From: Dioscorea cayenensis subsp. rotundata
Taxonomy: Eukaryota; Streptophyta; Magnoliopsida; Dioscoreales; Dioscoreaceae
Assembly: GCF_009730915.1 (NCBI RefSeq)
Contig: NC_052474.1
Span: forward strand, 1,399,501-1,463,500
Length of the DNA stretch: 64,000 nucleotides
Direction: 5' to 3'
Made by a program: the position numbers and the translations under genes. The notes beneath the pieces were generated by a model. It was not told the origin of the DNA. It saw only the letters and a list, made by a program, of their open reading frames with translations, and did not search any database. Positions 4,832-54,617 of this stretch are shown piece after piece (positions within the stretch are counted from its first letter, which is position 1; each line of letters opens with the position of its first letter).

Positions 4832-5315
4832 ATGGCGGAAAACATGGTGACACTGAGGAGCAAAGACAACAAAGAATTCAGAGTGAAGCAAAGCACAGCA
4901 GCGCAATCCAAGTTGCTGAAGAGCCTCATTGACCTAGGCTGCTGCACTGACCAACAAACAATCCCAATCTTTGAAGTCTCCAGCCATGTTCTTCAATCTC
5001 TGATTGAGTACTGCGAGAAACACGCCGAGTTATCACCAAGCCACAATACTGATGAGCTCTTGAAAGATTGGGATACTAATTTCATGAAGACAATGACCGA
5101 GAAGGAGGACATGGAATTCATTGGCTATCTCCTGATCGCGGCCAATTACCTGGAAGTCAAGGGATTGCTCAACCTCATTGCTGACGACGGTGGCTGATAT
5201 GATCAGAGGCAAGACTACTGAAGAAATTCGTACTATTTTGAACATCAAAAACGATCTCACCCCTGAAGAAGAACAAGATATCTATGCAGAGAACGCATGG
5301 GCCTTTTCAGATTGA
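4832..5315 (+). CDS. SKP1-like protein (SCF ubiquitin ligase adaptor), frame broken once near the C-terminus
   Basis: SKP1 bridges cullin 1 and F-box proteins in SCF ubiquitin ligases. The intronless frame begins [16 protein letters not shown] and shows the SKP1 BTB/POZ-like fold in order: the N-terminal strand-helix, [18 protein letters not shown], the variable acidic loop, WDTNFMKTM, then [15 protein letters not shown]. In the annotated frame translation stops at 5197, after about 121 residues. The expected C-terminal F-box-binding helices, [16 protein letters not shown] to WAFSD, follow directly in the next frame and end at 5315. One extra G in the GG around 5189-5191 explains the shift. 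With it ignored the protein would be about 160 residues, the usual SKP1 length. It may be a consensus error or a young pseudogene. Intronless SKP1-like copies are common in plants. Confidence 0.85.
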
Positions 5316-6665
5316 TTTTTATTTTTTTATTTTTTATTTTTTTAACTTTTTATCTATACAGATTTTTGCTCATTGATTTGTTAATTGATTGATTTTCTTT
5401 TTAGTCAGTACCAAAGTTATTAATAGGTGATTTTTTTTTTCTCCCCCCTTCTTCATTTGTTGTTTAGAAAATCATTGATATGAATCCCCACTTATAAGTA
5501 AATAAAAAATTTAAAACATTAATTTTAACTAATATTAATTAAATTAAAAATAAAAAAATATTGGTGGTCATAGTTGATAAAAGTTTTCTCTGACCTAACA
5601 TTACAAAAGGCAAAAACAGTTTCAATAGAGAACCTCTCATGGTTTTTATAACTCAAAAGATGAAAAAGCAAGAATATGTAGCTAAATATAAAGTTGCAAA
5701 AGATCTATTACCAAGCTACAATATACAACCGCAACAACACATGTTAATTTCACAAATATATTCAGTTTAGTACATTTAATTATTTGATAGTTAGCTGTTT
5801 CTAAATCCTTATACAACAATGACTTAACTGATTCTCATTAAAATTAACTTCTACTTCATTGCATCTGTCCTCTAAATTGCTTCTTGAAGAAAATATAAAT
5901 GACAGTTAATTTGCTTCTTCATATTATTAAAATACAACCTTCACTAACCAAGGCAAGATCAGTTAATACAGCATTAACTATAAATAGTCAATTGGAACTA
6001 TCAGCTCTTTTTCATTACCAATCAATGTGACCTAAACTAATACGAGCAATTCGAGAAAAGAAAAAAGAGCACATTGGGTATGCAAATGCATAAAATCTGA
6101 ATCAAGATACAGGTGTATCATCTTCAAACAAATTCAACAGGTACTCATATAACATTGCAGAATAAAATAGCTGTACAAAAAGGCAGATGGCTAACCTTGC
6201 CCAGTGTGCAATCTCTAGACCTCATCAAGGTTCTCTGTGTTTCAACTTTCAATCATCTATCATTTAGCAGGGCATAACGCATCACCAAAGCTCTCTTTCA
6301 TACCACTCCTGCAGAAAGGCCATCAATTGCCAGCTTTAAGTGAAAAATACAACATTTCCACTAACCATTGCACAGAGTAATCCAAAAAGAAAATAGATCA
6401 CCCAGGAAAAAGTTGAGAGTAATCCAAAAGGAAAATAGATCACTCTGGCAAATCTTTAGCCAATCAGCAGCAGCCATGGAAGGAATGCACTTCTCTTCAC
6501 TTCTCATTCATCAGAAAGAGTAAAATCTATTTAATTTACAGGATACATTCTAACATCATACATGGACCGGCTTCCCAGACCAAACTGTTATGAAGATCTT
6601 TCCTTCAAATTTATCCATGAAATATTAATACGTATAATGTAGAATTGAATGTTAGAACACAACTA
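5316..6665. other. Intergenic between convergent SKP1-like and maturase genes
   Basis: AT-rich 3' flanks of two tail-to-tail genes. Between 6350 and 6440 the words aatccaaaaagaaaatagatcac and aatccaaaaggaaaatagatcac form a near-identical short direct repeat about 50 bases apart. No coding potential or RNA gene recognised. Confidence 0.6.
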
Positions 6666-8804
6666 TCACATCTGTGCAGCCTGCATAACACTTCCACTCT
6701 CTTCCTCGTCGCCTGATTCAAACTTACCCTCATGCTTATCCAATCTCAAAAGCTCTTCCTTAGCTCTTTGAGTATTGCCTGCTCCTAATGGCGGCAACAT
6801 AAGTGCATTCTTCTTATAATTCCAAACAAGAATGGACATATAATCCTGCGGCGTTATAAGCCCCTCTTCTCTAAGAGCCTTTCGCTGCTCCTCCAAGGTC
6901 ATTGGGTCCTCCAGCCTTAGGTATTCTAATATAATTTTCTCATGCTCCGGCCTCCATCCACTTGGAAACGGAGTGTAGTCTGTGTCAGGAACAAGAGACA
7001 TCCGGGTGAACTGCAGACCATCAATGGAATCCAAAAGACCCATTCTCAACAAGTTCTGGTACTCCGGAGATTGACCCTTCTTATCCTTCAATGGTCGGCT
7101 AAGATTTCTTGATGCAATCTTGTAAACCTTAGCCCTAGAACGAAGCTTGTACTTAGCAGCATAAAGCTTTGCAAGTGAACCCCTAATGATATAAGAACAG
7201 AAGTTCACAATTTTCTTTCTGTTATCTGCATATCGGTACCATTCTACCATGGTGGACAAGAACTTGTTCATCTGTGCATTGGTGTGTGCTTGTGTAGCAT
7301 GGAACATCCTAAAACAAGGTTGTGGGTCAGGATCCCTATCACCTTTCAAGAATTCCAGCCTCCGAAACTGCTTAATGCACTGCTTCAAGCTTGCTGTGAC
7401 TGACAACAGTGTGCCTACACCCTTCTCACTGATGATCTTACCACCTGTTGCGGTGTATCGAAGTGTTGGGTAAACCACACGTCGACACAGAACATGGTCA
7501 AGAAACATTATCCCCTTAGTGATGTGTTCAATTGGAAGGCTCTCATTGTCCAACTTGAGCTGAAACCTCTGATCGACAAACTCAATCAACTGCTTCCTCA
7601 GCACCGCAGCATCAGCCCGAGGTCCCCTAATACCGATAAGGAAATGCCCGCCATACCGAATATAATCCATCTTCCTGGTCTTATCCGGGCCACTAGTTGG
7701 TACAAATTCCGGCCAAGAGGTGTTACCTTGCTCCCCATCCCCTTCCTCACTATTCCAAATAACATCACTTTTGGAAGGCTTGTAAAACTCCTTGATCTTC
7801 TCCTCCACCCACTTATCCAATTCATCGAGAACCAGATTAGCAAGCAATGGACTCAGTGAACCGCAATGTCCCCAATCCGGAACCTTTGCTGCTTCCTCTG
7901 GCGCAAACCCAAAGAAGGTTTGGAGCCAGTAAGGATCAGGCTTTGGTTCATCCTCAGCTAACACCTTCTTCTTCTGATACTTCCTCTTCTTCTTCTTCTT
8001 CTTTCTCTCCTCTTCATTCTCAGGACGACCAACAATAACTGGAGTGACAAGCGCGGACTTGATCAAATCTACGATCTTTTTATCACGAACATCACGAATC
8101 ACGGCATTGAGGACCAAACCAGTATCAATACTTTCAAAAACCGAAGAGAGATCACCCTTAACGTACCACAAGTAGCCGGCGAAGTTCCGGCGGATAGTGC
8201 GGATGACGGTGTGGGCGGTGCGGCCAGGGCGGAAAGCAAAGGACTTGGAGGAGAAGCGGGCTTCATAGACGGGCTCGAGGAGCATGAGGAGGATCTCCTG
8301 GACGACGCGGTCCTGGAAAGGGGGAGGCTGGGAGGAGGTGAGGAGATGGCGGATCTTACGCTTGGAAAGAGTGGAAGGATCGGTCTTGTCGTTGGGAGCG
8401 CGGAGGAGGAGGTTGAGGCGGCCGCCCCAGCGGAAACGACCATCGAGAACGGCATTGCGGAGGGCGAGGAGCGCGTCCAGGGTGGACCGGGGGATGGAGG
8501 AGCGGGTTTGGTAGGATCCCGTGGCATCGGCAGCGGCCTTCTGGTAGGCGAGGAGCCAGAGCTCAGGCCGGGAGAGGAGAGGGGAAAGGGGAGGAGGCGA
8601 AGAGGTTGGGGAGCGGAAGTTGGTGATCCAGAGGTTGGATAGGGTGGAGATCGGGTCGGGAAGCTGGGGGAGCTCATCAGAAGGGGGTTCGAGGACGCGG
8701 CGCTGGCGGTATGGTGGCGGCGTGGGAGCGGTAGAGAAGAAGGAGATGCGATGCATCATCGGTGATATGGGCCGGAGAAGACGGCAGGGAATGTGGCGGA
8801 GCAT
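6666..8804 (-). CDS. nMAT2: Nuclear-encoded mitochondrial group II intron maturase, type I (nMAT1/nMAT2 class, probably nMAT2)
   Basis: Assists splicing of group II introns in mitochondrial transcripts. Single exon, 712 codons, from the ATG at 8804; an upstream in-frame stretch has only TTG and would put an acidic segment ahead of the Arg-rich, Ser-rich leader MLRHIPCRLLRPI, which looks like a mitochondrial presequence. Reverse-transcriptase blocks in order: FAFRPGRTAHT (about 190), KGDLSSVFESID (about 216), a Lys-rich insertion (about 268-282), GSLSPLLANLVLDELD (about 315), then YIRYGGHFLIGI (about 381), where the catalytic YADD is YGGH, so polymerase activity must be lost. The maturase domain X follows (about 520-575, with KLRSRAKVYKIA). 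No C-terminal endonuclease domain is present, which defines type I. The GC-rich 5' half and AT-richer 3' half form a steep gradient. It shares a short divergent promoter region with RABH1B. Confidence 0.9.
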   Translation of the reverse strand: MLRHIPCRLLRPISPMMHRISFFSTAPTPPPYRQRRVLEPPSDELPQLPDPISTLSNLWITNFRSPTSSPPPLSPLLSRPELWLLAYQKAAADATGSYQTRSSIPRSTLDALLALRNAVLDGRFRWGGRLNLLLRAPNDKTDPSTLSKRKIRHLLTSSQPPPFQDRVVQEILLMLLEPVYEARFSSKSFAFRPGRTAHTVIRTIRRNFAGYLWYVKGDLSSVFESIDTGLVLNAVIRDVRDKKIVDLIKSALVTPVIVGRPENEEERKKKKKKRKYQKKKVLAEDEPKPDPYWLQTFFGFAPEEAAKVPDWGHCGSLSPLLANLVLDELDKWVEEKIKEFYKPSKSDVIWNSEEGDGEQGNTSWPEFVPTSGPDKTRKMDYIRYGGHFLIGIRGPRADAAVLRKQLIEFVDQRFQLKLDNESLPIEHITKGIMFLDHVLCRRVVYPTLRYTATGGKIISEKGVGTLLSVTASLKQCIKQFRRLEFLKGDRDPDPQPCFRMFHATQAHTNAQMNKFLSTMVEWYRYADNRKKIVNFCSYIIRGSLAKLYAAKYKLRSRAKVYKIASRNLSRPLKDKKGQSPEYQNLLRMGLLDSIDGLQFTRMSLVPDTDYTPFPSGWRPEHEKIILEYLRLEDPMTLEEQRKALREEGLITPQDYMSILVWNYKKNALMLPPLGAGNTQRAKEELLRLDKHEGKFESGDEEESGSVMQAAQM

Positions 8805-11844
<3,040 letters not shown>

Positions 11845-14780
11845 ACCTTCTTGTCGGTTTGTAGGCTGTGCTCAACTTGTCAATGTGATGTGCTGCATGG
11901 TCTCTGAAGGTTCTTCCTGTCTCCAATGACTGAATTCACAATCAGATCTGTGGAAACTGTGATGACTTTCTCTGGAGGAGGCTGCTTATTAGTATGAAGG
12001 TTGAATCTATTTTCTGGTTAGCTTGTTTTAGTTACTTATATTTTCTTTCTTTGTCTTTACTGTTGTCAATAGAACCATTTTCCATAAGAAGTCATTGAGA
12101 ACTGTAGTCACAACTCGTGGATAACTGTTTTAGTTGCATCATGAACATCAAGAATAATTGATATAGTTAATATTTGTGATTTCTTACCTGCATACATAGC
12201 AGGCAGAAATTTTGTTTCATTCTTTTTGATTAGTGATATGATAAGTTTTCAAAACTTGTTTGCTAGTGTTTACAACTCTCTGTTCATTGTCCATTTCTGC
12301 AACAGTAATTTATTCACAGTTTATGTTTAGGTTATTAACTTTGGATTAGTAGATGCTAAAAGGTGGTTCATGCGTTTGAATGTATGCATGAGATCATGCA
12401 GGCCAAGCAAATGCTGATGTTGAACATGAACAAGAGGAATAGACAGGTTGTAGCAAAAATGATAGATTTGGACACAAATTGTTAAGTAATCCATATGCCA
12501 ACTATAATGACTGATTCATTAAATGACAATTTAAATAATAGGTTATTATACTAATGATTTGTAGACCAAGACCCTTTCTTGTATTCATAGTTATTTGAGG
12601 CACTCGTAATCAAAACAATCTTTTAAGTGACAGTTACAATGGAGGTCTTGGGTAATCTTGATTCTAAGTTAATGGTTAAAAGCTAACATAGTATTTCCAA
12701 TGATCAATCACTCAAATATCTTTGTCAAGTGCTCCTCCCCACACGGATAAAACACCATGAAGAAAGCAAACAAGCGTTTTCTTTGATAGGTCATGTCCCA
12801 AAGTCCATCCTTATCTCCAAATTTGGTGGAAAATATAAAAGTCTTCTCTCTCTGATATTGAAGTCAATGTACATAAGGTTTCTCAATCTGGACATGGGTT
12901 CATTAACCATGGAACCTTGAGGTAATGTTATTTAAAACTTTCTCACACCTTGTGTGGCAGAACAGTATAAAAGAAACTTTGCTTTTAAAAAAGCAAAGTC
13001 TCTGAATCATTCTCTTGCTTTATTTTAAAACTTTGCCAAGTTAAGCAGTGCCTTTTATTGCTGTTTTAATATTGAATAACAGGCATGATGGGTTGCTTCT
13101 TTTAGAGACAATTTTCTGGATTATTTTTTTGTTGTGAGACTTTGTTGTGAGTTTGACGAGGCCTTATCAGCCGTGTTGACCCACAAATTGTGATTTATAA
13201 TATGATTGAGATGTATTTTTGGCCTTTTTCTCTAATGTAATATTTGGACGTAAATATCTATTTTAGGTGTTATCTAACAAAGGCTGCAACTATGATATTG
13301 ATGAATATATTAATTTTTACGTCTCATCTTTGAATATATATTTCTTTGGTTTTCCGCTGGAAGCATTCCAAGTAGGGCAATAAGAACAATCAAAAGTTAG
13401 TCTAGTGTGTGTTTCACGTCACTCAAATTTGTCTTTTCTTACTGGCCAATTCTAAGTATGCAAGCATATCCTAGATTGAAAAAGAAGAGAGTAAACTCAT
13501 CATTTTGTTGGCCATTAAGGAAAATGTTTTAAATATTCTCACATCCACATTTTACTCGCTAAAGTTAAAAAAAACACCCACACACAATAATGAGTGTGAG
13601 AAGTTTTTTATTATTTCTTCTTCTTAGGCAAATTTTTGAGATAGAGCGACAAAGCGCTAACTCTCAGTTGATATTTATCAAAAATAAAATAAAATAAAAT
13701 AAAATAAAACCTTACTTTTCAAGGATCAATATGAGGGCTTCAATGAAGATTTCCAAACATGCCATGCTTTTTTGATTTTACAATGCATTAGTTTTTTTTC
13801 TTTTCAGATCAAGTAGAACAAGACGTTTGATGATGTTTAGGAAGTGTGAAAAAAGAAAAAGTCCAATTTTTATTTGACCAAAGTTACCCAAAGATATTTT
13901 CTACTACATCTTGTTTGAGCTCTAGTAGACTTTTCTAAGCATTGTGAATGTCATAGAAGACACACCACTACCACTTGCAGATCTTGTTTTCAATGAATAA
14001 AAAACTTAATTTTTGTAGTCTAGAAAAAAGAAAGCTAGCTATGTTTTGCCAATAATCAACACCACCAACATGTGTAAAGTAAAGCCTTTGTATTTGCATT
14101 GATAAGACTAACCAAACAAAAACATTATAAAACAAGGACGAGGTCATAATACTCTTCAAAATTATTCAATTTTAGATGCAAAGCTAAAAAATTGATTGAT
14201 TGATTGATAGATAGATAGACAAAAAATTATAATATAATAATAAGGCATTAATCCAAGCCTAAGTCACTCTAGTGCCTAAAAAAAACTCCATGCTAAGACT
14301 GCCAAAATTGGTCAATGGTTGCATCTAATGGGGGTAGTTGAACACCTCCAAATATGTCTCTGTGTAAATGCATACAACTATCACTAGGGCTGCGACCATC
14401 AATCCACCTCCATCTCCCACCAAACTACTATTTATTATTATTTATTATTTATTATTTATTATTTATTATTTATTATTTATTTAGATGAGAAGGGCAAATG
14501 TGTCTTTTTTTAATTCAAAAGGAAGCCAACTGTATCAACCGAGTGACCGTTAACCATGTACTTTCGCATTTTTAAAATTAAAAAAAAAAGAGAGAAAAAA
14601 GGCCCGGTTTTGGATGAAACCACGTTTTTTTTATACCCGCTTTTTTATATATAGAAAAAAAAAACTATGAAAGAGAGCTAATTTGGATCGCAATTAATTG
14701 TGATTTTTTTCTTTTTTTTTAATATAGAAAAAGAAGAGAATGGCAAATGGGTAATTAACAGGAGAAGAGGGGGGAAATCG
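11845..14780. other. Intergenic, AT-rich
   Basis: RABH1B 3' flank, then unassigned DNA. Contains a short (AAAAT)n run near 13681-13710, a GATT/GATA tetranucleotide run near 14195-14220, and the TTATTTA-type run listed below. No protein or RNA gene recognised. Confidence 0.6.
14428..14483. repeat. TTATTTA-type simple repeat
   Basis: A run of seven-base units of T and A (tttatta and rotations), about eight copies, in intergenic DNA. Confidence 0.85.
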
Positions 14781-15569
14781 TCACCGGAATCGCCCGAAGT
14801 CCGCCAGCTTCCGTGACCGATTTGGGCCGAAGGACTCGGCGCCGGCGCCGGCGCCGCTGCTTCTTGGGTGCGCTAGCACCGGCCGTAGCTCACCGGAGAA
14901 CCCGATCTCTGCTGCCGGCGCTGCGTGACACCGCCTCCCGGCCGGCAAGGTGTGCACCAGCGGGCTTAGGCACATGGTGAACCCGCTGCCGCCTTGCCGG
15001 TGGCGATGGTGGTGATGCACCGTTCTCATTGGCGTCGGCATCGTTCTCCGGCTCATTCCGGAGGCTTCCGTCGAGTACCCGCTCTCCGATACCGTGTCCC
15101 TATCGTCGTCGTCCTCCGCCGCCGGCGACATCCCCCTGTCCCGGCACGCTATCCTCACCGGCGGAGGGGAACTCATCTTCGTCTTCTTTCTCCTCCGACG
15201 GCCAGGAATCAGCTTCGAGATCCATGAAATTGAGCCAAATCGCTTCGATTTCACCGGATCGGTGTGATGCTCATTGGATCGGGGGTGGGAGAAGAGGGAA
15301 GATAGAAAAGATCGGCTCCGGCGAGCGGTGGCGGTGGAGGACGGGGCTACCTGCGGGGTGCTGAAGAAGAGGAGTTGACGACGTGGTCCAGCGGAATCGA
15401 CGGAGCGACGATTGGGTGAAATGGAGGCCGGGAGCAATATTGGTTCTGGCCGGCGCCGGGGAGTGTCGGCGAGGGCAATCTGAGCGGCGAGGACGTCAAG
15501 GAGCCGGTCCCGGAGGCAAGAGGCACAAACACCGGGACCGACCTCGTAGGGATGGCGCTTGCACTTCAT
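14781..15569 (-). CDS. Small OCTOPUS-like (DUF740-related) protein, unknown role
   Basis: Single-exon frame of about 262 codons from the ATG at 15569. The N-terminus reads MKCKRHPYEVGPGVCASCLR, a Cys-His-Cys-x-x-Cys pattern like that at the start of plant OCTOPUS/DUF740 proteins, followed by RDRLL. The rest is low-complexity and basic or Ser-rich: RRSRSFLSSLFSHP, a WISKLIPGRRRRKK cluster, an acidic EDDDDRD patch with SESGYST, a His-rich stretch, and a Gly/Ala-rich tail ending LADFGRF. No membrane segment. The gene is far more GC-rich than its surroundings. Members of the OCTOPUS family associate with the plasma membrane and affect vascular development, but this short form has no known function that I can assign. 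The ATG is supported by the motif directly after it. Confidence 0.75.
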   Translation of the reverse strand: MKCKRHPYEVGPGVCASCLRDRLLDVLAAQIALADTPRRRPEPILLPASISPNRRSVDSAGPRRQLLFFSTPQVAPSSTATARRSRSFLSSLFSHPRSNEHHTDPVKSKRFGSISWISKLIPGRRRRKKTKMSSPPPVRIACRDRGMSPAAEDDDDRDTVSESGYSTEASGMSRRTMPTPMRTVHHHHRHRQGGSGFTMCLSPLVHTLPAGRRCHAAPAAEIGFSGELRPVLAHPRSSGAGAGAESFGPNRSRKLADFGRFR

Positions 15570-15642
15570 CTCCAACGACCCCCTACTCCTAACTTCGCCG
15601 CCATTGAGGAAGGGGATCGAGAGTTCTAAGCTTTCGAGCTTC

Positions 15643-15664
15643 GAGGATTAGGGTTAGGGTTTGA
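15643..15664 (-). promoter_or_regulatory. Telo-box-like tandem motif upstream of the OCTOPUS-like gene
   Basis: The plus strand reads gattagggttagggttt, that is two AAACCCTA-type units on the coding strand, about 75 bases before the start codon. Telo-boxes are common in 5' regions of plant genes active in dividing cells. Position and motif are seen; function is inferred. Confidence 0.5.
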
Positions 15665-21600: not shown

Positions 21601-22193
21601 GGTGGAGAAGAATGAGTTAATTAGAATAATGTTCAAGAGATTATAAAAAGCAAGGAGAATAGAGAAAGACAATGAAGAACAAAGTAGAATCTTAGGCTTG
21701 GTTGAGCTTTCCGGTGAATCTTCTCTTGCCACCTTGGCAGTAGGAAAGTCTTTCTCATTATCTAGAATATTTTTTTATTCAATTTTCTTATATCTATACC
21801 TCTGTGAGCTTCGTAATGTTTGTTAATAAATTTCATGTTGATTGATGGATGTTTGATAAATTGTTTGGTTGATTTAAACATTTAGGAGTTATAATAAGCT
21901 TTTGTTGTTGACTCCTTGCTAACTGGAGTTAGAGTGGAGATAATTCAATTAAATTGATTGTTCTATTGATTTTGGTGTTTTGTGAATCTCTGATCCACAA
22001 AAAGTGGAGACTCTAATAAATAGTGAATAAATAATATTATATAATTTTTGAATAGTATCATGAAATTATACAATATTATATAATATGAGGTCAAAAGATT
22101 TGATCATTGATCTACCCATTCACAATTTTAAAGGGATATAATTGGATTACCAATATTTAATTTGTATCAGTATTTTATTCAATTTTTTTAATT

Positions 22194-22744: not shown

Positions 22745-22772
22745 GATCTCTCTCTCTCTCTCTCTCTCTCTC
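22745..22772 (+). promoter_or_regulatory. CT-repeat 5' leader of NAD-ME1
   Basis: An almost pure CT run ends four bases before the start codon. CT (GAGA on the other strand) tracts are frequent in plant 5' untranslated regions and core promoters. Confidence 0.65.
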
Positions 22773-22776
22773 ATCA

Positions 22777-32739
<9,963 letters not shown>

Positions 32740-39307: not shown

Positions 39308-40014
39308 GCCAGTATATTTGTTCCTAATTTAGCCCGCATGTTTAATTTTCATATACAAGAGCATGATTTGTATCATGAGATGTATTAATAAAGTGGAAAA
39401 TAATAACAAGTTTTAGTAACATTAATTGCTCCTTTTCTTTCTTGTTTATTTGTAAAAGAAGTTTTAGTAACTTTTACTTACTCGCTTTCCTTCCTGTTTC
39501 AGCATTTGAGTGGCATGCATGCATGATATTCAATTGTTTAATATCTATATATTAATCATATCTTAATATTAAAATCCATATCATTGTTTTAAACTCGTGG
39601 CCCGTGGGCTGTTTTTCCCTTTAATACTCCATAAGAACAAGGCCCAAAAACGGAGATAAGCCCGGCCCAATTTCCAAGCTGGATATCTTAAGAATCAAGG
39701 CACTCGTTAAGGCACTCGTCTAAGTCGCCGAGTTTGAAAGCCGTTTGAAATTCAAAACGAAGCCGCCCCGTGACACGTGGGATTTGGAATAACGAATACT
39801 TTAATTATTATTAAAAATCTCCATTTCTGATATCTAAGCGCTGTTATTCTTCCCAGAATGTCCCCGCTATTCCGGGTTCCAGAAGAATTCCCAGGGTCAG
39901 AATGGGAAGAATAGAAAGTACTATAAGGTCGGTCGACGACCAAAGAGAAGCAACGAAAGCAAGGACTTTCTCTTCTTCGTTTTTGCATTCCATCTTCGGA
40001 TTAGGGTTTGAGAG
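39308..40014 (+). promoter_or_regulatory. Dynamin gene promoter: site II motifs, G-box, telo-box
   Basis: Between the FORKED-like stop and the dynamin start lie GGCCC/GGGCT (39599-39610), GGCCCA (39641 and 39664) motifs of site II type, a CACGTG G-box near 39775, and a telo-box ATTAGGGTTT (40000-40009) directly before the ATG. Site II plus telo-box is a known combination in plant genes of dividing cells. Motifs are seen; their activity is inferred. Confidence 0.5.
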
Positions 40015-43000
40015 ATGGCGACCATGGAGAGCTTGATCGGGCTTGTTAATCGGATACAGAGGGCGTGCACAGTGCTCGGTGATTATGGCGGTGCTGATGG
40101 CGCTTTACCTACGCTTTGGGAGGCGCTACCCTCAGTCGCCGTCGTTGGTGGTCAGGTTGATTTTAGCTTCGTCTCTGATGTTTTTCTTATCTTGATTCTT
40201 TCTTGTGCTATATACGTGCCGCGGTTTGTGGATTTGGTTCTGAATTGGTTTTTGATTTTGGTGCCGATCAGAGTTCCGGCAAATCATCGGTGTTGGAGAG
40301 TATTGTTGGACGTGATTTTCTTCCCCGTGGATCTGGTGAGGATTCTTCTTCTTCTTTTTCTTCTTCTTTTTTTATATATAAAAAAATAAAAAAAAAAAAA
40401 CAAGTTCTTGATGGTTCTTGAAGGGATCGTGACCAGGAGACCGCTGGTGTTGCAGCTGCACCAGACGGAGGAAGGACAAGAAGAGTATGCTGAGTTCCTT
40501 CACTTGCGTAATAGGAAGTTCACGGATTTCTGTGAGTTTATTTCTTTCTGGTTGGAACTTCTAGTTGCTGATTGAAAACTTCGTGAATTTGTTTTTATCT
40601 GATAGGAATTGTTTAAACTGCTTCCTGCTTTTAATTTATTTGAGACGCATGGCTTCTTTTAGGGCATCATGATAGTTAGAAACGTCCACGTCTACAACTG
40701 TTCACTCAATACACTAAGTTTTGTTATTTATACATATTGATGTTATATGGTGGGGCAAGCTGTTTTATTGAGACTTTTATCCTAGCATGTTTGGTTCTTG
40801 ATGTTTTGAGGTGTAGTAAGCACTAAGTTAAATGATGCTTGAATTCATTTTTCTGATAGTTTATTTATCATATTGTCAACTTGATTTGGTAATACTTGGA
40901 TCCATTGTTTTGATTTGAATTTTGTAACAATTCATGTTTTTAACAAGTAATGTTTTGGACCATTATTGTTTTGATTTGAAATCTGTAACAATTCATGTTT
41001 TGGACCGTTATTTCACTCATTTGTAACAATTCATGTTTTGGACCGTTATTTCACTCATCCGTAACAATTCATGTTTTGGACCGTTATTTCACTCATCCGT
41101 AACAATTCATGTTTTGTAACAGGGAAAGATAGAATATGTGAAATGTAATTTCAGTAATTAGGGAAGTAGAAATGAGAGAGGAATTTTGGATGGATAATAC
41201 TGAGATTGGTAAAAATAGAAGTTTTTGGTATTTAGGCTCTAAAATCCAAGATGATAGGGGAATTTATTGAAAATATAACAAATTGGATGAAGGCAAGTTG
41301 GGTAAAAATGAAGGGAGCTCTTGGAGTTTTATGTGATCATAGAATACTCTTAGATTCAATCGGATGAAGATTATTTAAAGAATGAATTTTTTCTAAAATA
41401 AATTTGGGGTGGCACTGACAAGATGGAAGGTATGCTTTATAGAACAATAGTTAGACCAGCTATGATGTATGAGTCAAAATGTTGGGCGGTTAAGAAATAA
41501 ACACACTCAAAGGATGAACATGGTTTGAAATAAGAATGTTGTGATAGATGTCAAGCGCTAAAGATTATTTAAAGAATGAATTTTTTCAAAATAAATTAGG
41601 GGTGACACTGACAAGTTAAGAGAGAATCGGTTAAGATGGTATAGATATGTCAATTGAAGATTTGCAGATGCCCTATAAGAAAGTTGGGAGTTCTCCAGGT
41701 GGAAAGTCATAGAAAAAAATAGACTTAAAAAGTGTTTAGTAGAAACTTTACATAATGATATGTCCATATTTGGTTTATTTGGCCCTTTGGCCTTTGATAA
41801 AGCTACGTGAAAGTGAAAGATTCATGTAGTCATCCACATAGTCGGGACACTATGTGACTAACGGTTTGTTATTGTTGTTGTTGTAATTTTGGACCATTGG
41901 GTTTGTTTAATTATTCAATTTTCATGTATATTTTTAAGTATGCACCTTTGGAATCCTTTTTGTGTTCTTTTGGAATAGCTCAAAATTTGTTGTGTTTGAA
42001 AATAGTGTTGTTTTGATTTTCAAGCTGGATACAAAAAATACTCTAGTATGTGGGCATAATTAATAAGGTTTGTTTGTTGTGCACATATATATTATTGAGA
42101 TTCAAGTTCTTATCATAGTTTTCCAAAACCACATATCCTGCAACTGGTGTTATGGGGATGCCATATTAATGCAAAAATGTGGCATGCAGATATATTTTCT
42201 CAGTTTAATGTTAATTTTGTGGCACATTGGAGTTGCTAATGATCATGCTGCTTTTACACAGCGCTTGTGCGTCGAGAAATTCAAGATGAAACTGATAGGG
42301 TTACTGGAAAGACGAAAACAAATTTCTCCTGTACCCATCCAACTCAGCATTTACTCACCAAATGGTATGGACTCTCAGATTCCTTTTTTCTTAATTTAAG
42401 TGGTGTCATTGTTATAAGGTTTGAAGGTCACACATATATTGAGCTCGAGTTGTTATGAAATTCTATTTTTGATGGTTTACTATTACAATTTACCTGTTTA
42501 ACAGATTTAAGATGTTTTGCTTGAAGTCACACATCTTTGACCTTTTTCGACCATAATGTTTTCTTATGATTGTTGGGCTCTCTTTGCTTTAGGCTATTGT
42601 ATGAGCATATCCTGGATCTTTATCTCTTGACATTATTTTGCTGCGCTATTGATACAGTTGTGAACTTGACAATGATCGATCTGCCTGGTTTAACCAAGGT
42701 TGCTGTAGGTAAATTCTTTCTTCTTACCTCCTTAAGATAAGTGCTTTATAATGATGATTTATGTTCCTATCCTCATGTGGTGATTCTTTTGTTCTTGTTT
42801 TTGTTGTTGTTTTTTTTTTAAAATTGCAGAGGGACAACCAGAGAGTATTGTTTCAGATATTGAAAACATGGTTCGCTCATATGTAGAGAAGGTACTTGGT
42901 TGAGAAGTCAAATTTTATATTATTTGTTCAAATGATACATATGTAAACACAAATATCTCTTTCTTTAGTTAGACTTGTAGCAATATATGTAATCCCAATT

Positions 43001-46000
43001 TTAGTTCATACTGTCTTGGACTTTTTGTTGTTGTAAAAAGATCAACAATATTTTAAATATATAATTTATCGATAAGGTTATAACTGGTAGAGCAACTTTA
43101 TTTATGATGTTGCTGTAGTTGTTGATTAATGAGCTAAAAAATACTAGAGTACTGTGACTGTAAATGGGCAATCCTCAAGAGAATCTGAGGTGGTTTTGTC
43201 CTGCATACCTTTAAACCAGGTGCATGCTTTATCAGATTACTGTCATTGGATAACACCTCCATAATGCGATTTTTTTATATGCTTACTCCTGATTTCCTAA
43301 TAGATTATGAAATATATCAACTTGATTTCTTGGCTGCCGTTGTGGTTAAGTCTTACATGTCATCTTGTGTGTTTTGTAGCCGAACAGCATCATATTGGCA
43401 ATTTCTCCTGCGAACCAAGACATTGCCACATCTGATGCTATTAAACTTGCTCGGGAAGTTGATCCAACAGGTAACGAGACAGAGCTAGGACCCAACTATT
43501 GCCAAAAATTTATTTCGGCATATCACAAATTTGGTACCTTTAAGTTGCATGATGGTCTTAACTCGTTTTACTCTCCATCTACAATTAGGAGAACGCACAT
43601 TTGGAGTTCTGACAAAGCTAGATCTGATGGATAAGGGAACAAATGCACTTGATGTGAGTTAAGCCTCATCCTGCATGCATTCAAATTTGAAGATTCTTAA
43701 ATGTGTTGAATGCTTTTGTTGACTCCATTTCCCCTCTATTTTTTTCAATGTGCTTCCTTGCATTGCTTTCTATACTTGGTTAGGTTCTGATCTGGCTAGG
43801 TGTTTCTTATTAGGTTCTAGAAGGAAGATCTTACAGGCTGCAGCAGCCTTGGGTGGGAATTGTCAATCGTTCACAGGCAGACATCAATAAGAATGTTGAC
43901 ATGATTGCTGCCAGGAGAAATGAGCGAGAATACTTTGAGACTAGTACCGATTATTCACACTTAGCTAGCAAAATGGGTTCAGAATATCTTGCGAAACTTC
44001 TTTCAAAGGCAATAAAATGCAACCATTTTAATAGATGACGAAAATATGGTCTCCAGCTAATTTTGACTTTATTTTGTATTTGAATTGATTTTTTTATTCA
44101 GCATCTGGAGTCTGTAATTAGGTCACGCATACCAAGTATCACATCTTTGATAAACAAAACAATAGATGAACTGGAAAAAGAGATGGATCAAATTGGAAGA
44201 CCCGTTGCTGTTGATCCAGGGGTGAGTATTTCTATATAGTTTTTAATAATCTTAATTTCGTTTATGGATGAAGAAAGACCCTTTGCTGTTTATGCAGGCG
44301 CAATTGTACACCATATTGGAACTCTGTCGTGCTTTTGATCGTGTGTTTAAGGAGCATCTTGATGGAGGGTAAGAAGTTTTTATTTTCTTTGCTATTGTTT
44401 ACATGCATAGTTATTGCCACAAGAATGCAAAATGTTTTAATTTGTTAAAAATATAATGGTATTTGTGATGGCTGCATAAAATATAATGGTGTTTTTGAAT
44501 CATGTTTATTTTACTTTGTCTCATCTTTTAAGTTGTTTGATTCCCAAGGACTAGAAAATAACCTCATCTCTTTATAGATTTGCTACAAACATTGATATCA
44601 AGCTTGGTTATTTGTTGCACCCTCTTGATACAAATAAATTCATTTCACCTTTTCAAGCATGTTTTTATCATGTTCAAAGTAATAACTGTCACAATTTTTT
44701 TTTTCTTTCAGATTTTACTTTCCATTGAGTCAATAGACAGATATGAATATTTTCTCTAGTGAATTTTATCTATTTCTTTATTTTTTTGATTTTGACAAGA
44801 CTATCCTCACATTAGTGTCATATGCTGTTTAGCGCTGATGTTAGAAATCCGTGTAATAGAAAATAACTTCTGAAAGGAACTTTTCACTAAACATGTGAGG
44901 CAAGAAGTTCTTCATGATTCTAAGACATGTTGCCCAAGTAAAACTTGCGAGAGATTTTATTTGGAAATTTGAAATCGGTTTTTTCCTCTGCAGTTTATTC
45001 CTTTTGTGTTGTATTTAGATTATACTTTCATATTATTGGTATCTTATTAAGTGGATGACCACCTAATTGTAGGCGAGCTGGTGGTGATCGGATATATGGA
45101 GTTTTTGACAATCAACTCCCTGCTGCTTTGAAGAAGCTTCCTATTGATCGGCACCTCTCCCTGCAAAACGTGAGAAAAGTAGTCTCTGAGGCAGATGGTT
45201 ATCAGCCCCATCTAATTGCTCCTGAGCAAGGTTATCGTCGCCTGATTGAGGGGGCTCTGAGCTTCTTCAGGGGTCCAGCTGAAGCATCTGTGGATGCTGT
45301 AAGCATGTTCTTGATTTTTTTTTGTTTCCCTATTGTCATGCATTACACTTGTACTGATCACTTGATTAACATATACCACAGGTACACTTTGTTTTGAAGG
45401 AACTGGTGAGGAAGTCAATTGGAGAAACTCAGGTAATGGCATCAAATTTTTGGATATTTTGACCAACATGGGTTTCATCCTTACCAAATTAAGCACTTGC
45501 TGACCTATTTGATGATCAGGAATTGAGAAGATTCCCCTCCCTCCAAGCTGAACTAGCTGCTGCCTCGTACGAGGCGTTGGAAAGATTTCGTGAGGATGGT
45601 CGGAAGACTGCATTACGGTTAGTTGACATGGAAGCCTCATATCTAACAGTGGAATTCTTTCGTAAGCTCCCACAGGAAATGGGGAACCTCCAAGGCTATG
45701 GTCAAGGCCCAAGGTCAAAGTCAAGGTCACAGCCAAGGCCAGGGCCAAGGTCACAGCCCAAGGCCAAGGTCACAGCCAAGGCCAAGCCAAAGGTCAAGCC
45801 CAAGGCCAAGGTCACAGCCAAGGCCAAGCCAAAGGTCAAGCCCAAGGACCAGCGCAAGCGCCGTCTGCTTCTATTGATAGATATTCTGAGGGGCATTTCA
45901 GGAGGATAGCTTCCAATGTTTCATCTTATATAACGATGGTCTCGGATACACTTAGAAACACCATCCCAAAGGCAGTGGTTTATTGCCAAGTTAGAGAAGC

Positions 46001-46270
46001 CAAGAGATCTTTGCTCAATCATTTCTACACACTAATCGGGAAGAAAGAGGTTTCTCTCTCTTGTTATATCTTTTGCATTCAGTGTCTGTTAGTTAGTCCT
46101 CGGCAACTGTTTAGTCATGATTATGTTCTTACCTGGTGCAGGGCAAGCAGCTTGCGCAGCTCTTGGATGAGGATCCTGCGTTGATGGAGCGCAGGGTGCA
46201 ATGTGCTAAAAGGCTTGAGCTATACAAGTCTGCTAGGGATGAAATTGACTCTGTTGCTTGGACCAGATGA
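40015..46270 (+). CDS. DRP1E: Dynamin-related protein 1 class (closest to DRP1E/DRP1C), with Gln/Gly-rich linker and frame breaks
   Basis: Plant DRP1 GTPases act at the cell plate and in clathrin-mediated endocytosis. Fifteen exons: 40015-40155, 40272-40335, 40424-40531, 42262-42364, 42658-42708, 42830-42891, 43380-43470, 43589-43653, 43814-44008, 44102-44221, 44298-44368, 45073-45298, 45382-45432, 45520-46049, 46142-46270. P-loop GGQSSGKSS (about 45), [17 protein letters not shown], stalk [19 protein letters not shown], then GED with [20 protein letters not shown] and [10 protein letters not shown]. No PH or Pro-rich domain, as expected for DRP1. Exon 4 has one extra A in AAAA (42315-42318). 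Exon 14 has two extra C in CCC runs (45708-45710, 45757-45759). Ignoring these gives about 667 residues; family members are about 610-625, and the excess is a Q/G-rich linker. Intron 9 uses a GC donor. Confidence 0.92.
40985..41118. repeat. 38-bp minisatellite in dynamin intron 3
   Basis: The word gtaacaattcatgttttgga recurs at 40985, 41023, 41061 and (partial) 41099, an exact 38-base period with almost no differences. A more diverged copy precedes it near 40924. Confidence 0.93.
41120..41885 (+). mobile_element. RTE-type LINE remnant in dynamin intron 3
   Basis: Short coding-like fragments match the 3' part of plant RTE LINE ORFs: a [11 protein letters not shown]-like segment near 41220, a [11 protein letters not shown] segment with CWAVKK near 41435-41500, and RENRLRWY near 41620. 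The remnant ends in gttattgttgttgttgtaa near 41866-41885, the GTT-repeat tail typical of RTE elements. The frame is broken many times and the 5' part is missing. A 55-bp piece (aaagattatttaaagaatga...) occurs twice inside, near 41368 and 41561. Confidence 0.75.
45690..45855 (+). repeat. Gln/Gly-rich coding repeat in dynamin exon 14
   Basis: Built from CAAGGC/CAAGGT words. Two exact 42-bp copies lie at 45759-45800 and 45801-45842, followed by the start of a third. In the frame that joins the downstream GED, each copy encodes [14 protein letters not shown]. It sits exactly in the variable linker between stalk and GED, where other DRP1 proteins have a short unconserved segment. Confidence 0.85.
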
Positions 46271-47152
46271 GAGATGAGTTACATGGTATATATATACACT
46301 AGTTGGGAGTTACACTATACAATGTGCAGTGGCAGGTATCCATGATATCCGTGACCTGCTTGTTCTCATCCCATCCCTGGCCACTCGTGCCACTTGCCTT
46401 TCATTTGAAAACTGCACGCCCTTTTTTTTTTTCTTCTACAGGATTACATTGTTTACAGCTTTTGTATTGATGGTTCATTTGCTAAGTGTTGTTCATCAGA
46501 ACAAGATATCGATCATTAATTATACTAGCTATTATTATAGCAGCCATTTGTTTTCATTCTTGTTGAGGTACAATCATATTTTGTTTGTTATGATGAAAAA
46601 AAAAAAATAGAGATTTGATACATTTTCGCTCTGACCTTGATGATGAATTAACAAGATTCAGGTGGATAAACGGCCCTCCTCAATTTACTGTGATAGACAC
46701 TAAATGGCATTCTGTAGCATGGTTGTGATCATTGTTGGTTAATGGAATAATGTTACTGCCATCCAGAGTTTCTGGCAGCTACGTGAGTGCAAGTTCATGT
46801 ATTTTGGTACAGAAATTATGATTAAAGACTGCCTGAGAGCAACTCTCATGGCTTTGTGAAACAATAAATCATCCTGCAAGTCCTGCTTTTGCTAGGGGCA
46901 ATTGCAACAAAATTGAATCAACGACAAATTGGTGGTATGTGGTTTGTGAGTTCTAACTGCCGCTCGGAGCAACATTTTCTGTAGTATGGATATCATTGCC
47001 AAGCCTGGCAAGTACAATCATGTTAAACAAAATAAATGGGTACAAGCATATTAACCAAAATAAAGTTTTTTCTGGCATAAATATACTATGCATGTGGTTT
47101 TTCCTTTTTTGTCTGAAAAATTTGTACCAAACAGCATGCTACTACCATAGCT
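46271..47152. other. Intergenic between convergent dynamin and SGPP genes
   Basis: The 3' flanks of two tail-to-tail genes. Contains T-rich and A-rich runs near 46420 and 46600 and nothing that codes. Confidence 0.6.
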
Positions 47153-49861
47153 TTAAGCTGCTGCAGCTTTCTCAAGCTCTTCCAATGCACTCCAAAGCTT
47201 CGGGTCATCATAATCCTTAATGAGGAAAGTGGCTCCGGCATTTGTCAAGAGCTCCTCAGGATTTCTCGTCGGTAGGCCAATCACAGGCAATCCAGCTGCC
47301 ACGCCAGCTTTTATCCCTGAGGGTGAATCCTGAAGAGGCAAGTAAACATGTATAGGTAACAGGCTAACAGCAAAGAATGACACAAAAAAAATTTAAAATG
47401 TGCTGATTGTTATATGCAAGAAAACCACCTCAAAAACAAAAGTGTGCTCCCGGGAGAGATTGAGGACTTCAAGAGCCTTCAAATACGGATCTGGAAAGGG
47501 TTTGGCCCTCTCACACTCACTACCAACCACAACAAGTTGGAAGAAGTCCGTGAGACCAAGAAGCGAGATCATTAGTTCTGCATTGGGCCTTGGAGCATTT
47601 GTGACTGCTGCACGCTTTATACCATGATCCTCAATCCATTTACACAATTTATGGAGACCATTTACCGCTTTCAACTGCTCTGGTGCAAGCCTGCCAATGA
47701 TATATTTAAGAAAGTTTGTCCATACCAGATATGAAATTCATTAAGCATTAATGATGCAGAGATAGAGTGAATGCTTTACTTGCGGAAATACTCTTCCTTA
47801 TCATCCATGAATTTCATTGCCTTCTCATGATCCCAGTCAGGAAATAGTCTGCTGGCAATGTCTTCATTGTGCCCGCCAGCAATATTCTTGACAAAGAAGT
47901 CTTCATCTATAGGGACCCCATTGTTGTAACCAATCTGCAACAAGTATATAACTCTTATCACTCACCGTAGTTTTGCCTCATTTATTTGGGTAAGAACATG
48001 TAGATATCTCAGTCTGGACTGATATGAAAGATTTCCTACCTCTAGTAACATTTCTCGGAAAGCATAATGATGGACAGGATCTGTATCACATAATGTTCCA
48101 TCAATATCAAACAAAACTGCTTCAAGAGGAGCAAGTTTAGCCAATGAACAAGTGCTGCAACAAGATTAAGACTGAAAATTAGTACTGCCCAATAGCACAT
48201 TAATCTGTTTTCCTAGAAAAAGGTTCAGGATAAAAAAAATAAAATAAAATGGCAGACATGACAAAACATGATAACAAAACTGAACAACAGAGGAGGAACG
48301 TGTTTATTTGATCTAACACCAGTTGTAACCATAGAATAGTTTCAAGATGCTTTCGCCCATACAGGACTATCATAAATCTGTATGTAACGAAAATATGCAT
48401 GACAGAAAGCATGCTCATTTGAAATAGCAAAGGATCTTCCACCCAAATTGAATATGATTAAAACTAAACCTCACTTCAGTCTGCAACCACTAGACACAAG
48501 CATAACTTTTCAATCGAGAATGCCATACTACTTATTCACAAGCATTGTTAAAAAAAAAAATCTTTCTTTGCCATGTGTAGAAGTAAACTTCAATCAGTCT
48601 ATAAAACCTTCACCCTGGTAATCATAAAAACACTAAAAAATTATGCACTATAAACAAATTACACATCTCGAATGGTTTGACGATAATAGAAGTTACACAT
48701 TCAACCTATGAAGGCTTAGCTTTGGTGTATCGAACCATAGCTCTTGTCTGCTCTGACACCTCATTTAGAAAATTGTTTAAGCAACGTTTCATTTACTCTG
48801 ATCCATCATGTTAGAATGTGTTTTCTCATCAAATTATTTGAGTGAATGCAAGTAAAATTTACATGTCATATTCTTAAAATGAACACTACCACTAATAAGA
48901 AGGGTTCTGTCCTTAAACACATGTCAGACACAAAAGTTGGATCTTAAAAAATACTTTAAATGCATGACTGCAGGGCAACATTACAAACTATATCGCATGA
49001 TCAAAGGAATCAAATAATTAAAACCTGCCAAAACAATGGATGGATCATCAAAAGAATCATCAGAGCATCCCATGAGACTAGATACACCTAATTAATAACC
49101 AAAAATGAAAAGAACGGAAGAAAGAAAAGGAACAAAAATGATGATTAAAAACAAAATGGTTTCAACCCAAAAACAGAAGCAAAAACAATCCTATAACCCT
49201 TTTGATCAATTAAAGAAACTCAACATCTATATCCACAGTCAAAGCAATCTGTGAAAGAAATCGACCTTATAAAACATCACAACATCTCAAAAAAACATGA
49301 AAACCTAATTAAATGAAAAACAAAAAATTAAACAACTTTTCAGAATCAACAGACACCAACGTCAAAGCAAATCAAAGCAAAATGTTATTAATCCATAAAT
49401 AATCATCTGCCAATCTGCCAGCAAAACAATCTATAAATGAATTCAAGGACAGCAGATGGTTAAAATAGATCAAGGATTAACAAAACATCACAAAAACGCC
49501 ATGGTAAACCAAATTCATATAAACAGCAAAAAGAACAAAAATAATAATAATATATCAATAGGAAATGAATAAATTTCGTAGAGAAACCCTTTTAGATGAT
49601 TAAACACACTTAAAATTTCCATCAAACAACCAAAAATTACAAACGGCTTCACTGGCAACATCCAAACGATATCACAAACCATTACAACATCGCAAACAAA
49701 TTAAACAAACTAATCAACAAAGAAAAGAAAAAAAACCCTAAAATTTAATCAGATCGATCGCACATCAATCGGAGCTTCTAAAACCTAAGAATGCATGAAA
49801 AAAAATCCTCAAAAAAAAAAATTTTGAAAATTCGAAGCGATTACCTCTCAAGAACAGGCAT
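47153..49861 (-). CDS. SGPP: HAD-superfamily sugar phosphatase, SGPP type
   Basis: A haloacid-dehalogenase phosphatase that dephosphorylates small sugar phosphates; the Arabidopsis relative SGPP has broad sugar-phosphate activity. Five exons on the minus strand: 49845-49861, 48040-48154, 47780-47934, 47429-47690 and 47153-47329; 241 residues. HAD motifs in order: FDIDGT (nucleophile Asp about 22), AAVTNAPRPNAE (motif II), the Lys in RAKPFPDPY (motif III), and VFEDSPSGIKAG (motif IV acids). The cap segment IGYNNGVPIDEDFFVKNIAG matches SGPP. Exon 1 codes only five and two-thirds residues and is followed by a 1.7-kb intron. A CT-rich leader lies upstream. Frame intact. Confidence 0.92.
48155..49844 (-). 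other. SGPP intron 1 (1.7 kb)
   Basis: Unusually A-rich on the plus strand (T-rich in the sense of the gene), as plant introns are. Donor GTAATCG directly after a 17-nt coding exon, acceptor TTGCAG. A telo-box-like AACCCTAA lies near 49735. No nested gene or element ends seen. Confidence 0.8.
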
Positions 49862-49929
49862 CTTTTGAGATCGGAAAGCGATGCTCGTTTCAAATTCGAG
49901 CTTCTTAACTCAAGATCGAAAATTAAGCG

Positions 49930-49975
49930 ATCAAGAGATCGAGATCGAGATCGAGATCGAGAGAGAGAGAGAGTC
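49930..49975 (-). promoter_or_regulatory. CT-repeat 5' leader of SGPP
   Basis: In the sense of the gene, a CT run followed by TCGATC repeats, 70-115 bases before the start codon. The same kind of leader as NAD-ME1. Confidence 0.6.
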
Positions 49976-50540
49976 ACGAGGCAGAGACGGAGCGCGAAGG
50001 GAGGCATAAAAAAAGGAAGCGATGAGAAGGGAGATTCCCGGAATCTCTTCATACATAATGAATGACTCATGTTAAAATTCACGTGTCATAATTCATGACT
50101 TAATTAATTAAAATAATTAGTTTTGTTTTAACTAATTGCGTTTTTTTTAATCTGAAATTTAAAACTCAAGAATTTTATTTATACTGCATTGAAATATTAG
50201 AGAAAAATAAATATTTTATCATGTCAAAGAGGGAAACCATGTTTTTGTGATAAATATTTTAATTATAGGTTTGAGATGGGACGAGAAGAATGTGGGAAAA
50301 ATTGGACACTATTTTTTATACTTAATTTCTCAATTTTTTTAAATATTTTAATTATTTTTAAATATTAATATTGAAATAGGTTCAGTTTTTGAAAAAAAAA
50401 CAGAAATCTCGTCTAAATAATATATTAAATAGTATAATTTAGTATTTTTTTTTGGACTATAAGTAACACCCATATTCACTATATTTTATTTTTTTTATTG
50501 TACCCTTGCTCTTTTAACTCGTGGTTAGTGGAGAGTTATT

Positions 50541-50719
50541 TTATTTATTTATTTATTTTTTTAGAAAGGCGATAAATCGCGGACTCAGAGATGAACAGCG
50601 TGAGGGGAAAGCGTAGCATGTCAGATGTGGATCGAACTCGGGAGGCTACGCCCGACATTCGGGGTGAATCACCCCTACGTGAGGCCGATCTGCGATAGGC
50701 CAAGAATGGTGCGTTGGTG
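50541..50719 (-). mobile_element. tRNA-derived SINE with 14-bp target duplication
   Basis: Flanked by a perfect direct repeat AGTGGAGAGTTATT (50527-50540 and 50720-50733). On the minus strand the body is GC-rich, unlike its surroundings. It carries a GAGTTCGATCC word like the RNA polymerase III B box, preceded by a hairpin GGGGTGATTCACCCC, and ends in an A-rich AAATAAATAAATAA tail next to the target repeat. The size of about 179 bp, the tail and the target duplication all fit a plant SINE. A clear A box was not found. Confidence 0.82.
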
Positions 50720-53423
50720 AGTGGAGAGTTATTGTTCCTGTTTGTTTTAATTGAAATGATTTATTTATTTTTAAAAAAACAAAAACATATTAGTTGATGC
50801 CAAAGCTTAGTCGATATTATTAACTTGTAAAGTTGATTTTTACTGTTTTATTCAGTTTTGTAAACTATTTCTTATGTCTATGATTTACTCAGTTTTTACA
50901 AAATAATTTAATAGAAAAATAGTGTTATTTTTAAAAGTTGGTTATTTTTTAATGAAAATATCTAATGTGTACAGATTTATCACCACTTAAATGGGAACCA
51001 ACTTCAAAATGACTTTTGGTTCTCTAATTAAAAAAATATATATAGTTCAAAAAGAACAAATACTTGTTGGTTCAAAGATGATATTTAAACCTAGTCAAGA
51101 TTTGCCAACTTTTCAATGAAGAAATAATGTGTATTGTCACACATGTCTGGTAGTTATGGGAGACAGCAATGGGCATGGAATAAGCTGAGACAAAAGCCAA
51201 AAAAACAAAAAGAGGAACAAAGGTATATGTCTTCCAAAACTAAAAAGTTTTAGAACCAAATTAAATATTTAGAAAACCACAAATGACAAAAACAAAATAT
51301 TATTATCTCATCAAAACCTTGAAAAGCAGCATCTCAATTAAAGGCAAAAGCTTGAAGAGAAAGTCATTCTATTTTGTTGGAAAGATAACACTCAATCTTA
51401 GAGGTATATATATATATATATATATATAACCGTTCTATAAAATAAAAGGTTATTCTATTCTATTCTATTGGAACGGCCATAATTCATTGGTTTAAACAAA
51501 CAACATTAAAAAGTTTTATCACTTAAAAAAAGTATTATGAAAAATATATATCAGAGCACCAATTGTGATTTATCTATTTTTATAAATATATATAGATAAA
51601 TCAATGCACCAATTCAATAAAGTTGTGATTTATCCACATTTATTTAAAAAAAAAAATCAATGCACCAATAACATTTGTTCTCAAAGTTTTTATTAGATTT
51701 AAATGAAGATAATGAGATGTTCTAATCAAATCTTAGGATATATATATATATATATCCCTTTTGTTTCATTTTTCTATCAATAGAAATAAAAGTTTTTTTT
51801 TAAAAAAAATGGATAAACTGAAACAAAAGAATCAGAACAATGTTTTCTGTGTTCTTCATTGACATATTATTTGTAAAATTTTTAATTTTTATTAATATAA
51901 AATAGATAAATCATATCTATTAAAAAATAAAATATTTAGTATATATACAACGCAAAATATATAAAAATTACAAAATAAATATAAAACAAATTAGAACATA
52001 AGAATGACCATCTATCAAATGTGATTAAAATTTTTATATATCATATAATATCAAAATCCGCGTGACTTCAGTTTTAATGAAATTTTGTTTAATCATCCAT
52101 TGTTGCGATCAGAGTGATAATATTATTGATTTTCATATGAAAAGCCGAAGATTTATTTATTTTATTTAAAATATAATTGAGGATTTAAAGGATGTGTCTG
52201 ACGTGACTTATTCATATTATAAATTAAAAAAAAAAAAAAACTTTGATCATCCAAGAGTGGAATATTACCTGCCCAATCTTCTCTTATCTATTGGGATATT
52301 GCTGTACATATATCTACGCTAGCTTGTTTCTGGTTAAGAGGCTACCTTACTAGGATGAGGACCTTCATCATAATGGCATCCATGTAAGAGATGATGTAAT
52401 ATTGACATTGTCATAAGAGATTTAGAATTTTTCAGCAGCCAAACCTGAATTGAATACAAAGGAAGATTACAGGAAAAGAAAGATCTCAAAGACTTATTAA
52501 AGATCAAGTTCATATTATGTTCATTTTCTTATGTTAATAAGCCTATCAAACTTGTGTGTAAATCTCTATTAATTAAGGTTTAGCAAAAAGGAAGAGTGTT
52601 TTTTTCCTATCACCTTCCTTCCACTCACCAACTTGAATTGAGGGAAGCCTTGATGTGTGATCACAAGGGAAAGTTGGTAGAGATGGCCTTAGTGTTCAAG
52701 TGCCTAACTTTGGGTCCATGACAGACATAGATACATGTATATACTTCTTTTTGAATAAAATATTCAACTTAGTGGTATCAGAGCACTAAGTAAATAAACA
52801 TATATACTTTATACAATACTTTATAGTATAGAATAGAACAAGCAAATCATATCCAACACATTCCCTTCTTCTTGGTTTCATTTATGTATATTTTAATTCA
52901 ATATATAACAATGACACTAATTATATGTATATATAAGTATAAAATAATTAAAACCTTCACCTTAAGCATTGTTTGCATGGAGATTATGAGATAAAAGATA
53001 ATATAATTCCTGCCTTTATGGTCACATCTCTCCGCGTAACCGAGATTATTATATATATTAAGAACATAACACCTTCATGTGTGAGCGTGGCAAGTATAAA
53101 AACGAAACCAAAAAAAAAAAAAAAGTTGATGAACTTTTGATTATATGTAACTACCAAGATTTGAAGTCTAAAAGTGTTTGGTTGCAGACAATCCAATCCA
53201 TTTGAATGTCAAATAACAACATCTTTCTTTTGAGAGTTTTTTAAGAATGTCAAAGCTTGAGTTTTACCAAATGTAAGCCAGGTTGTGTTCTAGTTTCATT
53301 ATAAATACCCCAACCCCCATGCCCTCTTCATTGCATAAACAACAACAACAATAACAACAACAACTAATAGTACTACTAGTTTCTTCTTTTCTTGTTTGTA
53401 TTTTTGGGAGAGTTCATTAATTA

Positions 53424-54617
53424 ATGGCTATCTCTTCTTCTTCCAAACTCCTTGTTCTCCACTTCTTATTTGCTCTTTATTTATGCCAATCTCCTGCAAG
53501 AGCTGACACTACTGCTTTTATTCATTCAAGGGCTGCCTACTACCCAAATTCTGATCAACAAGGAACTTCAGGTTAAGTTCAATCCATGCATGCAATGATT
53601 ATAATTAACTAGAGAAGTCTTAGTTTTAATTACCCATTCTTACATATATATATATATGTACACTTTCAGATGGTGCATGTGGGTATAAAACTTTTGGAGC
53701 AACACTCAATGGTGGTGATGTTTCAGCAGCTTCAAATCTCTACAGGAATGGTGTGGGCTGTGGTGCATGCTACCAGGTTATATATTTTCTTTTAAATATT
53801 AAATCACTACTTTTTCAGCATCTTTTTAACAGCATTAACTTAATCCATATTCTCTGAAACTTTTTGTTGAAACAGGTTAGATGCACAGGTAACAGCCTCT
53901 GCTCACCGAACGGAGTAACGATCGTCATAACGGACTCAGGGAGCGAGTGGAAACACCGACTTCATACTGAGCCAGCATGCTTTTTCTAAGATGGGATTAA
54001 CTGCGGATGCTGGTGCTTCTCTCTTGTCACTTGGAGTAGTAGACATTGAGTACAGGAGGTAGTATATATATATATAATAAGAAGATTATTGTTAAGTAGT
54101 ATATAATTGATAATCTTAATGATTTATATATCAATGTTCCTTTAATTTTCAGGATATCATGTAGTTGGCCAAACAAAAATATCACATTCAAGATTGATGA
54201 GGCAAGCAACTTCCCAGGCTACTTGGCATTTCTGATAGAGTATCAACAAGGAGCTAAGGACATTACTGCTGTTCAAATCTGTGAGGTAATGAAAGAATGA
54301 TAACTCGATCTCCAATTCCAAGCATATTCTTTGAAGTTTTAACTATATAGTATAATAATTATTCAGCCCAAAAAACTTATGTTTGAATTGTGATTTGTGG
54401 TGTTTATATATAGACTGTGAATTTGACATGCAAGCTGTTGAACCGAAGCTATGGAACAGTGTGGACAGCGAACCCTCCTCCCAGTGGACCATTGTTGATA
54501 AAGATGCTTGTGAGTGGTGATGAGGATGGGGATGAGACATGGCTGGTGCCAATTAACACAATACCAGAGAACTGGAAGGCTGGAGATTCATATGACTCTG
54601 GAGTGCAATTGAACTAA
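53424..54617 (+). CDS. EXLB1: Expansin-like B protein, frame broken once in exon 3
   Basis: A secreted cell-wall protein of the expansin superfamily; the biochemical role of the EXLB branch is unproven. Five exons: 53424-53571, 53670-53776, 53876-54058, 54153-54285 and 54414-54617; about 257 residues if the frame is restored. Signal peptide: [14 protein letters not shown] then cleavage near ARA-D. Domain 1 has [20 protein letters not shown] and [12 protein letters not shown] with the conserved Cys residues; the HFD motif of alpha and beta expansins is absent, as in EXLB. Then GVVDIEYRR, and the domain 2 immunoglobulin-like end [15 protein letters not shown]. In exon 3 one extra base near 53947-53952 shifts the frame between ITDSGS and GNTDF. 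The same exon then stops early in the annotated frame although the conserved text continues in the next one. Confidence 0.9.

Follow-up and report, generated by a model that had tools for sequence, protein, structure and literature searches.

The region analysed here (the window) is a 64,000-nucleotide stretch of the genome of Dioscorea cayenensis subsp. rotundata, C4:1399501-1463500, in an assembly of 584,211,761 bases in 2,249 contigs. A Dioscorea origin is borne out by a 38-residue fragment of dioscorin 5 (PDB 4twl), which has matches at 17 places in the assembly, with 92% and 89% identity for the top two and several matches clustered on C14 and C801. The window contains four genes from conserved families whose reading frames are broken at six sites in total:

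4832..5315, plus strand: SKP1-like gene, one exon; net +1 change at 5183-5189, located by the two Pfam halves and by spacing against the paralogue L075
22777..32739, plus strand: NAD-ME1-like malic enzyme gene, 19 exon stretches read; net +1 change at 32485-32488
40015..46270, plus strand: DRP1-type dynamin gene; three net +1 changes, located by translations, paralogue and Pfam
42315..42318, plus strand: AAAA, dynamin site 1; one-base gap against the paralogue L069
45708..45710, plus strand: CCC, dynamin site 2, in a hexamer repeat; located by repeat phase
45757..45759, plus strand: CCC, dynamin site 3, in the same hexamer repeat; located by repeat phase
53424..54617, plus strand: expansin-like B gene; net +1 change at 53945-53954, located by Pfam and by spacing against the paralogue L074

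In all four genes, the translations give family sequence in one frame up to the break and in the +1 frame beyond it. The six net +1 breaks of the original prediction are thus present, as judged from translations and the letters at the sites, and the positions proposed for them are good to a few bases. The proposal that they mostly lengthen a short homopolymer holds for three of the six (AAAA, CCC and CCC), while the other three are not placeable to one base. The exon boundaries were drawn by eye, several of them about one base off the true splice sites. The remaining exons tried of the NAD-ME1, dynamin and expansin genes are open in the expected frame. Among the neighbouring genes thought to be clean, this was borne out for the exons tried of the GOT1, RABH1B and FORKED-like genes, and the intronless maturase gene forms one 712-codon frame.

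The single exon of the SKP1-like gene is divided by its break into two recognizable halves, with a Pfam match to Skp1_POZ (1.9e-15) before it and to Skp1 (4.8e-20) after it. The upstream frame ends with LLNLIAD and the downstream frame begins with TVADMIRGK. The intact paralogue L075 reads LLELTTQRAADLIKGK here, with the same residue spacing as the two frames of the SKP1-like gene joined together; at the nucleotide level, the gene is one base too long in comparison to L075. A break had been proposed at the GG near 5189; a break does lie there, but the GG is only the right edge of the interval 5183-5189. In the NAD-ME1 gene, the break falls within exon 32466-32581, where 4 nt (32485-32488) separate IRDITK from the next ten-residue segment, leaving room for one residue. 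Indeed, phmmer aligns the protein with solved malic enzymes free of gaps, with one X at the break, in the three alignments shown. The short NAD-ME1 piece yielded no Pfam match. In the expansin-like B gene, the break is located within exon 53876-54060, and DSGS and TDF are separated by 10 nt (53945-53954) versus 9 in the paralogue L074. Expansin_C is matched after the break (1.7e-13), and DPBB_1 lies just below the Pfam cut-off before it.

The dynamin gene carries the other three changes. Exon 42263-42364 is identical to the C11 paralogue L069 at 95 of 111 positions in a blastn alignment, with a single 1-base gap adjoining AAAA. In exon 45521-46050, a CAAGGY-type hexamer repeat changes phase twice, first at CCC 45708-45710 and then at CCC 45757-45759. 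Past the repeat, the frame encodes the GED domain (Pfam, E = 8e-27); the piece preceding it gave no Pfam match. The repeat itself (45700-45860) codes for a Q/G-rich stretch and is absent from L069, so that sites 2 and 3 are defined by repeat phase alone. Short-query and protein searches of the assembly listed no near-identical second copy of the SKP1-like, NAD-ME1, dynamin repeat-exon or expansin stretches.

Breaks of the same kind are found in unrelated genes across the assembly, as expected of consensus error. The GRAS family, whose members are mostly single-exon, was chosen as a test family, and a search of the assembly returned 63 matches in 47 loci. Twelve loci, picked for broken-looking coordinates or stops, were fetched and read in three frames; the 35 not fetched include short pieces with stops (C918, C5:9.24M, C976 and C10:23.4M) that are perhaps pseudogenes. 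Nine of the 47 loci carry 12 frame changes, one each in L057, L058, L060, L061, L062 and L068 and two each in L063, L065 and L066, and all 12 were read as +1. The doubtful case is L063, a single net -1 by its coordinates, which was read as two +1 changes because a stretch of about nine residues matches in a short middle frame, the size of the first change not being pinned. With L063 taken as one net -1, the strict count is 10 of 11. The one-base size is pinned in L061 and L065 (by copies) and in L068 (1178 vs 1179), and the coordinates fit it in L066, whereas in the remaining loci the frame alone is certain. L066 (C19:29018933-29020492), with its two changes, is a GRAS gene that we take to be DELLA-like. 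Kept outside the count were L064 and L067, with introns assigned by eye, and L059, a poor copy treated apart. The BAHD family, in which an intron is present, and the UDPGT family, mostly matched in its core motif, do not enter the counts; the coordinates of the BAHD gene at C937 suggest one further +1.

The PPR family gave a similar result. Loci were scanned with a motif model derived from the PPR repeats themselves, starting from the best 150 of 3,567 candidates, which formed 85 clusters; 39 distinct loci were read. Five of these hold six +1 changes (one each in L010, L023, L046 and L051, and two in L025), and at five of the six the motif spacing is 106 nt rather than the regular 105. A single -1 was found in L039, in a copy that also has an in-frame stop, so that +1 accounts for six of seven PPR frame changes. 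L013, L026 and L040 (read as introns) and the weak or distant matches in L028 and L029/L037 are outside this count. When 17 of 18 changes were counted as +1, with L063 taken as two and before L068 was added, a sign test gave 0.00014, for events that are not fully independent.

Near-identical copies within the assembly differ by single-base indels and few substitutions, again in agreement with consensus error. L070 and L071 are PPR copies on C7, about 70 kb apart. From 172 to 1587 they show no substitutions, and L071 carries one extra base at each of six positions, in five cases lengthening a C or T run. L070 retains an intact 525-codon stop-to-stop frame. In the remainder of the frame the two copies differ by six substitutions, and beyond the frame L071 lacks one base relative to L070 at each of two places. 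Divergence made up of insertions with no substitutions, as between 172 and 1587, is not what natural evolution would seem to produce. In the natural control pair L019/L020, 22 coding substitutions follow the start codon at 156, and the only gaps, of 6 and 3 nt, are in-frame. Three GRAS copies on C15 (L059, L061 and L065, at 1.31, 1.26 and 1.09 Mb) lie within 0.23 Mb and are either duplicates or misplaced haplotigs. Over 1,284 aligned columns, the private differences are one insertion and one substitution in L061, two insertions and two substitutions in L065, and nine inserted, six deleted and seven substituted bases in L059. The pair L072/L073 is mixed, with one run longer and one shorter within the frame.

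The window holds six breaks in approximately 10 kb of measured coding sequence, i.e., the exons read plus three single-exon genes, with SGPP and the zinc-ribbon gene left out. The corresponding values are 12 breaks in 49.8 kb of matched sequence for GRAS and six in 60.1 kb for PPR. Since the window, which had been picked for being striking, is denser in breaks than these samples, the errors appear to be patchy.

On the sequence evidence, it is highly likely that the extra bases at the six sites are consensus errors of the assembly, absent from the DNA of the plant. The original prediction had favored this reading over four young pseudogenes, and the +1 bias in GRAS and PPR loci and the near-identical copies differing by insertions support it. 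The most likely origin would be noisy long reads, presumably nanopore reads, that were polished incompletely or over-corrected. Polishing would then lengthen short homopolymers and occasionally add a lone base, patchily across the genome, and reads of the plant would be expected to lack the extra base at all six sites. Polishing of nanopore assemblies has been described, in the accessible part of PMC7500977, to introduce more insertions than deletions and to over-predict homopolymer length, with errors that differed between very similar genomes. This behavior fits the pattern in the yam assembly. The Drechmeria coniospora assemblies of that report, as far as the accessible part goes, share with yam the frame breaks in single-exon conserved genes, the insertion excess, the over-long homopolymers and the differing errors in near-identical sequences; however, their errors were proven with reads, whereas those of yam are deduced from the assembly alone. 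Against consensus error stand the -1 in L039, the mixed differences in L059 and L072/L073, the shorter L071 after the frame, the higher density of breaks in the window than in the GRAS and PPR samples, and the three window sites that are not clearly homopolymeric. Taken over the window and L071, indels fall in homopolymers at three of six and five of six sites, respectively, the others being outside runs or unplaceable.

That the breaks arose when two divergent haplotypes were collapsed, with allelic differences fused into false frames especially at the dynamin repeat, is unlikely. Two of the six sites do lie within an internal repeat, and there is a precedent: in the available part of PMC8445201, a collapsed assembly contained false frame breaks caused by internal repeats and nearby allelic variants. 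The diploid Trypanosoma brucei assembly of that report resembles yam in its false frame breaks, some of them at internal repeats, but the part available makes no mention of an insertion bias, and otherwise identical copies are left unexplained. Haplotype collapse alone gives neither an insertion bias nor extra bases between otherwise identical copies, although allele collapse of the kind in PMC8445201 may contribute at the two sites within the dynamin repeat. It is quite unlikely that true frame-breaking alleles of this clonally propagated yam are hidden among the errors at one or two of the six sites; the SKP1-like gene would be the most plausible candidate.

The dynamin repeat might also be regarded as an unrecognized intron, which would render its two changes harmless. 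Candidate splice sites identified by eye, GT near 45702 and AG near 45851, would preserve the frame, and the absence of the repeat from L069 is compatible with an intron. Yet the stretch is not U-rich, its donor is weak, the repeat keeps codon phase inside each segment, and the other four sites would be left unexplained, which makes an intron very unlikely.

That the plant carries four genuine young pseudogenes here is the least credible of these alternatives and highly improbable. The SKP1-like family changes fast, and the closest paralogue of this member in the assembly is only 39% identical, so that its loss would be tolerable. NAD-ME1 and DRP1 dynamin, on the other hand, are housekeeping genes. 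Like young pseudogenes, the yam loci show one or few frame changes in otherwise intact genes; unlike them, they are insertion-only in the window, strongly insertion-biased elsewhere, and distributed over unrelated gene functions. In the exons tried, the damage to the four genes is of the +1 type only, instead of the mixed damage expected of young pseudogenes; the exons are open outside the sites, and GRAS and PPR genes show the same pattern. Programmed frameshifting was set aside on general considerations.

Collectively, a biological origin of the six breaks is very improbable. Because nine of 47 GRAS loci are apparently broken, this assembly needs re-polishing before claims of gene loss, pseudogenes or gene-family content can safely be drawn from it. 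In single-exon families, GRAS and PPR among them, a tally of frame changes by sign provides a quick, read-free check of base quality.

Several other features are present in the window. An intact 262-codon frame on the minus strand (14781-15569), missing from the original list, is DUF740-like, although below the Pfam cut-off. Positions 2654-2871 comprise an imperfect tandem repeat of two copies of about 109 bases. Exactly 1,000 N occupy 58421-59420 and resemble a scaffolding placeholder gap. A LINE-type reverse-transcriptase-like frame with in-frame stops, its family assigned by eye, extends over about 59941-61480 and 63781-64000; a further insert, starting TGTCACGCCCC, seems to interrupt it at about 61480-63780.
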